The position numbers were made by a program, and so were the translations under genes. Below, piece by piece: positions 37,173-37,764 of a stretch of DNA of 64,000 nt; position 1 is the first letter of the stretch, and each line of letters begins with the position of its first letter. Under the pieces are notes generated by a model. The model was not told the origin of the DNA and made no database searches. It saw nothing but the letters and a program-made list of their open reading frames with translations. The stretch is from Halapricum desulfuricans (lineage in GTDB: Archaea; Halobacteriota; Halobacteria; Halobacteriales; Haloarculaceae): the NCBI RefSeq assembly GCF_017094505.1, contig NZ_CP064787.1, positions 744,001 through 808,000 on the forward strand, read 5' to 3'.

Positions 37173-37689
37173 CGGCTTGCGACGACGCGAACTCGTCGCT
37201 TCGCTCCTCGTTTTGCGTCGTCAGAACTAGCGGGAGGTGGATTGAACCACGCGAAACGCTCGCTACGCTCGCGTTTTTCTCATTCAAATCCACCACAGAC
37301 GAATTCGTCGCTCACGGTTTTGTGAGCGACAGAATATAGCGGGAGGTGGATTTGAACCACGCCCACTTCGCTCCCGTTCGGTCGCTCGTGTTCTCGTTCA
37401 AATCACCGTGACCGATGCTTGCCGCTCACGGGTTTGTGAGCGGCAAAACATAGCGGGAGGTGGATTTGAACCACGCGAAACGCTCGCTACGCTCGCGTTT
37501 CTCTCATTCAAATCCACGCTATACGACTTGCGACGACGCAGACTCGTCACTTCGCTCCTCGTCTTGCGTCGTCAGAAAGTAGCGGGAGGTGGATTTGAAC
37601 CACGCGAAACGCTCGCTACGCTCGCGTTTCTCTCGTTCAAATCACCGCGACCGATGCTTGCCGCTCACGGTTTTGTGAGCGGCAAAACA
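37173..37689 (-). repeat. Array of tRNA-iMet 3'-end copies with stem-loop linkers
   Basis: Four copies of the 24-nt 3' end of the initiator tRNA (T-arm plus acceptor strand and discriminator) lie at 37228-37250 (one base short), 37337-37360, 37451-37474 and 37580-37603, downstream of the true tRNA. Read on the minus strand each is preceded by a partner arm gtggatttgaa or gtgatttgaa, making an outer stem around an inner hairpin such as aaacgc...gcgttt. Linkers between units carry their own hairpins, e.g. ttgccgctcac and gtgagcggcaa. Spacing is 109-129 nt. No gene lies here; a 94-residue open frame on the plus strand is a product of the repeats. Confidence 0.85.
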
Positions 37690-37764
37690 TAGCGGGAGGT
37701 GGATTTGAACCACCGATCTGCGGGTTATGAGCCCGCCGGAATCTCCTGGCTATCCCATCCCGCT
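37690..37764 (-). tRNA. tRNA-Met (CAT), initiator
   Basis: Read on the minus strand, the 7-bp acceptor AGCGGGA/TCCCGCT, a D-arm, the anticodon arm GCGGG-CTCATAA-CCCGC with anticodon CAT, and the T-arm GGTGG-TTCAAAT-CCACC are complete. The A1-U72 pair and three G-C pairs next to the anticodon loop identify the initiator; the elongator tRNA-Met of haloarchaea has an intron, absent here. The discriminator is A and no CCA is encoded. Copies of its 3' end follow at 37228-37603. Confidence 0.92.

Follow-up and report, generated by a model that had tools for sequence, protein, structure and literature searches.

Hairpin units that copy tRNA 3' ends across Halobacteria resemble small non-autonomous recombining repeats

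The initiator tRNA gene of Halapricum desulfuricans is followed by a tandem array of hairpin units that end in copies of the 3' end of that tRNA. The array lies in the window, the whole 64,000-nt stretch of DNA analysed (positions 744,001 to 808,000 of contig NZ_CP064787.1), and belongs to a real and widespread set of units that is undescribed as far as could be searched and that looks like small non-autonomous recombining repeats. No earlier description of tRNA-tail hairpin units was found in the open-access literature, with subscription papers outside the scope of the search. The units form a class-wide family that combines a duplication from the T-loop to the discriminator base, an inverted arm specific to the tRNA, a triloop fixed to one strand, differences between orthologous tRNAs and cores common to different tRNAs.

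Results

The array behind tRNA-iMet

The tRNA-Met(CAT) gene at 37764-37690 is identified as the initiator by the A1:U72 pair and the GGG:CCC anticodon stem in its sequence. The gene is on the minus strand, and the array at 37689-37175 is therefore located 3' of tRNA-iMet. The array is organized as follows.

37690..37764, minus strand: initiator tRNA-Met(CAT) (ARAGORN; Rfam RF00005, 60.2 bits); T54-A73 at 37709-37690 is the duplicated sequence
37657..37689, minus strand: unit 1 trailer hairpin H1, type a (TTGCCGCTCAC..GTGAGCGGCAA); ssDNA fold z -6.3
37635..37646, minus strand: unit 1 inverted T-loop arm (GGTGATTTGAAC)
37600..37634, minus strand: unit 1 inner hairpin core with GCGTAGC triloop
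37580..37599, minus strand: copy 1 of tRNA-iMet T54-A73; 20/20 identical, 24/24 with the four upstream bases
37527..37579, minus strand: unit 2 trailer hairpin H1, type b
37507..37517, minus strand: unit 2 inverted T-loop arm (GTGGATTTGAA)
37471..37506, minus strand: unit 2 inner hairpin core; H2 fold z -4.8
37451..37470, minus strand: copy 2 of tRNA-iMet T54-A73
37418..37450, minus strand: unit 3 trailer hairpin H1, type a'; fold z -6.1
37396..37407, minus strand: unit 3 inverted T-loop arm
37357..37395, minus strand: unit 3 core, a different core sequence with a weak fold (z -0.3)
37337..37356, minus strand: copy 3 of tRNA-iMet T54-A73
37307..37336, minus strand: unit 4 trailer hairpin H1, type c; fold z -6.3
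37283..37294, minus strand: unit 4 inverted T-loop arm (GGTGGATTTGAA)
37247..37282, minus strand: unit 4 inner hairpin core; H2 fold z -3.2
37228..37246, minus strand: copy 4 of tRNA-iMet T54-A73, one base deleted (TTCAATCC)
37175..37227, minus strand: fifth trailer hairpin H1, type b', with no H2 after it; distal remnant recognized by repeat match

Three 3'-end copies (37603-37580, 37474-37451 and 37360-37337) are identical to tRNA-iMet at 24/24 positions, and a fourth (37251-37228; 37250-37228 when counted as 23 nt) has one base deleted. With start-to-start spacings of 110, 129, 114 and 109, these are the four extra copies spaced by 109-129 that the first-pass annotation had described, here placed on the minus strand. 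The exact 24-mer has no match elsewhere in the 2.94-Mb genome with up to three mismatches allowed.

Ahead of each copy lies an arm that is complementary to the T-loop and the 3' strand of the T-stem, and the arms enclose an inner hairpin (H2), as had been noticed at first reading and is now confirmed in all four units. Folded as single-stranded DNA of the tRNA-sense strand, H2 of units 1, 2 and 4 beats shuffled sequences (z -3.0, -4.8 and -3.2, respectively), and H2 of unit 3 is no better than shuffles (z -0.3). The core agagaaacg...gtttcgcg, initially taken as common to the units, is present in units 1 and 2 and slightly changed in unit 4, and is replaced by a different core in unit 3. Each tail, including that of the tRNA itself, is followed by a second hairpin (H1) with a T-rich start, and H1 types a, a' and c fold as single-stranded DNA with z of about -6. 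The linkers are indeed hairpins, and their order of a, b, a', c and then b' departs from the strict alternation of two types that had been suggested. In an Rfam search of the array, the tRNA alone exceeded the cut-off, and no curated RNA family was found for the units. The genes flanking the array do not include a recombinase.

Two neighbors of the array deserve description. A 52-aa reading frame at 37014-37172 on the plus strand ends convergently beside the array and has no Pfam match; the array end of genome G001 also codes for a protein resembling it (..GxYYIPLD..SGYQVxISKVE). At 33894-36922 on the plus strand, a methyl-accepting transducer gene is followed by a bacteriorhodopsin-family gene, constituting a sensory-rhodopsin/transducer pair.

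Unit anatomy across Halobacteria

One or more units of ~100 nt (median 100 nt) are located behind a tRNA, each ending in the tail of that tRNA. Of 208 different tRNA loci, sampled with enrichment for unit matches, 168 contain downstream copies (251 copies in total), and a direct match upstream was observed at 11 loci. The copies are ~95% identical to their own tRNA overall and 93-100% identical over positions 54-73. Identity is near the base-composition background at positions up to 51 and decreases to 0.34-0.51 from position 74, where H1 starts. Given these drops below position 52 and from position 74 on, the duplicated piece extends from G52/G53-T54 to the discriminator base (position 73), and it is exactly T54 to the discriminator base in the 251 copies. 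Over the 12 nt past the T-loop, the mean edit distance is 0.9 to the own tRNA versus 5.9 to other tRNAs.

The inverted arm was found in 216 of the 251 units, and the search gave no anti-arm in the other 35. Behind tRNAs with unusual T-loops (TTCGAATC, TTCAATTC, TTCGAGTC and others), the arms of 20 of 26 units contain the matching unusual complement. Arm pairing is weaker past position 61; it is strong there in 43 of 192 units versus 10 expected, and the copy arm has a 1-nt bulge in 21 of these 43 units, whereas a bulge on the anti-arm is seen in no unit. The acceptor-stem part of the anti-arm displays no tRNA specificity. When the preceding and following tails were compared as templates of the anti-arm, 11 positions fit the preceding tail versus 6 that fit the following tail, favoring neither clearly. 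As a separate observation, the copies at four tRNAs of genome G000 (L067, Ile; L071, Val; L083, Thr; L088, Pro) share an inserted base, reading GTTCACAATCC rather than GTTCAAATCC, that is missing from their tRNAs.

Strand-fixed, DNA-type folding of the units

The apical-loop motif RCGNAGY occurs 133 times on the tRNA-sense strand versus 4 times on the antisense strand among 200 distinct cores, which are partly related rather than independent; a count by clusters (70 versus 3) makes the same point. The motif is distributed 40 versus 45 by strand in the rest of the window. Thus, the orientation of the hairpin and its folding strand are fixed, and the fixed triloop orientation argues against core inversion through two inverted T-loops. 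H2 is also more stable on the tRNA-sense strand in 168 of 216 units. The motif belongs to the d(GCGNAGC) sequences, an exceptionally stable class of minihairpin of the DNA type, and a mini-hairpin of this type was reportedly used in one published study. Judged from its sequence, this type of loop speaks for a hairpin that folds as single-stranded DNA. GNRA tetraloops are found equally on both strands of the cores (4 versus 4), and GNRA/UUCG loops are not favored. Furthermore, mismatches in the arms are G.U in 56 cases versus A.C in 59 and therefore give no sign of kept RNA pairing.

Spread in the genome, the genus and the class

Among all 42 Rfam tRNA matches in the genome of the window, 27 are followed by at least one copy of their own tail within 600 nt downstream and 15 by none; most of the copy-free tRNAs also lack the H1 hairpin. 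When the window array was used as a DNA query against six Halapricum genomes, a match was obtained at tRNA-iMet in all six and also just behind tRNA-Ala, Glu, Ser, Lys, Gly, Pro and Leu, where the copies correspond to the 3' end of each tRNA itself.

Genomes were scanned with the unit pattern GGATTTGAA-N25..55-GGTTCAAATCC, using the reversed pattern as a control. The pattern is present in 317 of 391 Halobacteria genomes and in 76 of 86 genera, and the reversed control has no match anywhere. In an even draw across the phylum Halobacteriota, the pattern was detected in 61 of 81 Halobacteria genomes and in 0 of 312 genomes from outside that class. In five genomes with tRNA lists, 26 of 27 pattern matches lie within 450 nt of a tRNA (~1.5% by chance). 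Units downstream of tRNAs in other genomes, which the first-pass annotation had proposed to look for, are thus abundant, and this spread takes simple local slippage alone out of consideration, the explanation that would have been left had no other haloarchaeal genome contained similar units. Two irregular loci were also observed. An orphan unit (L042, G003:C1:54651), 10 kb from any tRNA, adjoins a decayed tRNA-Val tail and is perhaps a remnant of a lost tRNA, and a unit behind tRNA-Ser (L038) has a run of ~19 C with an N in place of H1, which is probably an assembly error at the hairpin.

Differences between orthologous arrays and exchange between tRNAs

Orthologous tRNAs of genomes G000 and G001 differ in unit number and keep their flanks. 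At tRNA-Val(GAC), G000 has no unit and G001 has one, and the same flank stands directly behind the tRNA in the former and behind the copy in the latter. In the same comparison, tRNA-Leu(GAG) has one extra unit in G000 that adjoins the tRNA, a unit is duplicated at tRNA-Val(TAC), and tRNA-Ser(TGA) has 4 versus 2 units. Loss by recombination between tails looks the same as gain, and presence or absence alone is therefore no proof of insertion.

Unit parts are also common to different tRNAs. In genome G012, an identical 39-nt core is located behind tRNA-Pro and tRNA-Ser (L300 and L301), each with its own tail, and the same core is found behind tRNA-Pro in the related genome G006 (L308). A Ser unit of G000 resembles a Leu unit of the same genome at 84% over 98 nt, and both have tRNA-specific arms. 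H1 and the core can be combined anew, with break points at T-loop sequences. An Asp-type tail with an Asp-type H1 within a tRNA-Thr(GGT) array (G060, L214) is the only clear foreign tail found; to judge from its sequence, this unit apparently brought its own tail along to the new site, as a cassette would.

Integrases and viruses as candidate sources

Halapricum integrases are located behind tRNA-Gly, Glu, Thr and Leu. Integrase genes lie ~0.6-0.9 kb behind tRNA-Gly, Glu, Glu and Leu at L236, L237, L232 and L248, and the att sites of these four elements may be much shorter than T54-73. The Halapricum integrase elements were rejected as a source of the units, with no T54-73 copy within 40 kb. 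A proviral origin was likewise rejected: a scan of IMG/VR with the consensus T-loop unit gave no haloarchaeal virus and matched bifidobacterial prophage-like contigs along with probable chance hits. A second IMG/VR scan with a G57 T-loop was swamped by bacterial tRNA-Ser and yielded a single haloarchaeal unit, downstream of a tRNA-Glu in the flank of a contig. The bifidobacterial contigs (L163:8498-8555 and L159:1103-1163) contain an inverted T-loop hairpin, GGATTTGAACC..GGTTCAAATCC, that is terminated by a tRNA-like 3' tail; a gene for a tyrosine integrase lies ~60 nt downstream. By analogy, this hairpin is like a putative attP with the same plan as H2 and would represent an independent parallel to the haloarchaeal units.

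Discussion

How might such units move? We propose, at about even confidence, that the window array consists of non-autonomous DNA hairpin cassettes that have their home at a tRNA 3' end and recombine between G53 and T54. One cassette would comprise T54-N73 of the tRNA, the trailer hairpin H1, the inverted T-loop arm, the inner hairpin and G52G53. The tRNA-sense strand, when single-stranded, would fold and thereby bring the inverted arm and the copy together as one double-stranded T-loop site, and a recombinase would swap strands at the G53/T54 junction of this folded site, with either the tRNA T-loop or that of another copy as the partner. The fixed partner would be the T-loop of the tRNA, where a conservative exchange always leaves a whole tRNA. 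Strand exchange at this point would therefore always restore the tRNA and allow the array to grow and shrink like a cassette array. By analogy, the limits at G53 and T54, the strand-fixed two-arm hairpin, the internal loop and the one-sided bulge would look like features of a folded single-stranded DNA recombination site. We infer that the enzyme is most likely a host or proviral tyrosine recombinase; PF00589 recombinases are present in all six genomes searched. The first-pass suggestion of miniature integrative elements in tandem came close to this cassette model, given the precise presence or absence at orthologs, the exact T54-73 duplication, the cores common to different tRNAs and the class-wide spread.

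Several findings speak against the cassette model. No recombinase is linked to the arrays, the integrase-bearing elements at Halapricum tRNAs have no T54-73 copy within 40 kb, and the presence/absence pattern could also reflect repeat-mediated deletion rather than insertion. The tRNA-specific arms need cassettes to be confined to one tRNA type or to be re-templated; cross-tRNA cores then need gene conversion or T-loop exchange, and only one case of a foreign copy is available. In addition, the attC consensus GTTRRRY is not matched (C56), 35 of 251 units have no detected anti-arm, and unit 3 of the window folds weakly.

A more far-reaching reading, which we put forward tentatively and consider rather unlikely, is that the units constitute a second, integron-like cassette system of haloarchaea. 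The universal T-loop of tRNA would be the insertion site, folded single-stranded hairpins with a tRNA-matched arm would be the recombination sites, and insertions would swap the 3' half of the tRNA. As each insertion would replace the tRNA's own 3' half, such a system would also edit and homogenize tRNA tails. Integron arrays and CALINs (attC, IntI) likewise have an array of units at one fixed site, and attC is a strand-specific folded hairpin with an internal loop and a bulge; the proposed exchange point of the units is compatible with G/TT. However, the haloarchaeal site reads GTTCAAATC and not RYYYAAC/GTTRRRY, with C at position 4; the haloarchaeal arrays have no adjoining integrase gene, their units have no ORF, and their home site is the tRNA T-loop. 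Archaeal integrons reported so far come from metagenome-assembled genomes of nine phyla (PMC9668308), a paper in whose text neither Halobacteria nor tRNA turned up as a search term.

Tyrosine-integrase elements at tRNAs resemble the units in the duplicated tRNA 3' end, the restored tRNA and the 22-nt length of the duplication. For example, a prophage next to an integrase in Haloquadratum walsbyi C23 is limited by a 22-nt tRNA-Ala duplication (PMC3119063). In contrast, the units are ~100 bp, non-coding and too short for an integrase gene, are arranged in tandem behind most tRNAs and contain an inverted T-loop arm.

Could the arrays have arisen without any dedicated enzyme? Old hairpin repeats could be duplicated, exchanged and lost through homologous recombination and slippage during replication between 22-nt tails, and the anti-arm could track the tRNA via quasi-palindrome correction, that is, template switching within the hairpin. 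The differences between close relatives, such as the Val(TAC) duplicate and the 4 versus 2 units at Ser(TGA), resemble duplication, loss and shuffling of H1 and cores, repeat-mediated deletion has been described for Haloquadratum (PMC3119063), and neither Y1 nor Cas1 is needed. Yet an enzyme-free origin does not account for how units first came to stand downstream of almost all kinds of tRNA, why the duplication keeps exactly to positions 54-73, why the triloop orientation and the bulge are one-sided, or why tRNA-Pro and tRNA-Ser are followed by identical cores, and we regard it as unlikely.

Single-strand transposition by an IS200/IS605-like (Y1 HUH) enzyme, with H1 and H2 as the left- and right-end hairpins of a PATE-like element, is improbable. 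Two subterminal hairpins, strand-fixed folding and single-stranded DNA-type loops suit this enzyme class, and PATEs are common in Haloquadratum (PMC3119063). However, G003, G093, G149 and G201 contain units and no Y1_Tnp, and the pattern is found in 16 of 20 listed Y1-negative genomes, as in the whole sample. The units share with SMR-A and PATEs of Haloquadratum a haloarchaeal host, richness in hairpins and the absence of a transposase, and SMR-A, whose mobilization is not known, has a similar size of ~110 bp (PMC3119063). SMRs and PATEs lack a target duplication (PMC3119063), whereas the units duplicate their target, the tRNA 3' end, and a tail copy ends every complete unit. Moreover, SMRs have inverted terminal repeats, and SMR-A targets IS605/PATE palindromes and not tRNAs (PMC3119063).

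An RNA function, in which transcribed tRNA-like 3' ends or hairpins serve as decoys or as aids to tRNA 3' processing or termination, is equally improbable. The units do stand directly 3' of tRNAs, H1 has a T-rich start, and the copies stay 95% identical to the tRNA tail. Nevertheless, the arm pairs show no G.U excess (56 versus 59 A.C), the strand-biased triloop is of the DNA type, GNRA/UUCG loops are not favored, the copies lack the acceptor 5' strand, many tRNAs are unit-free (15 of 42 in this genome have no copy), and unit numbers differ between relatives; these findings argue against the transcribed tRNA-like decoys envisaged at first reading.

Least probable of all is a Cas1/casposase-like integrase that inserts the units at staggered cuts and thereby duplicates the 22-nt tRNA tail as its target site: direct tail copies flank each unit as after a staggered cut, and casposons too target tRNA 3' ends (PMC4046053) and give a short duplication and, with Cas1-mediated CRISPR repeat duplication, an array-like result, but the casposon target overlaps the tRNA by 4-7 nt only (PMC4046053), the units have neither TIRs nor Cas1/PolB, the Asp-type copy found among Thr units does not duplicate the Thr target, and Cas1 is missing from 56 of 86 family genomes and from the unit-bearing same-genus genomes G002, G003 and G005. 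The absence of Y1 transposases and Cas1 from several unit-bearing genomes speaks against both as standing movers, though either may have acted in the past.

A structured repeat family stands behind approximately two-thirds of the tRNA genes here and is present in most genomes of a well-studied class of archaea. Annotation of tRNAs is affected because partial tails can resemble tRNA fragments. If recombination at the T-loop is true, tRNA genes would have a new role as hubs of recombination, and the units would be a source of tRNA tail exchange and would provide a testable model of folded single-stranded DNA recombination in culturable archaea.
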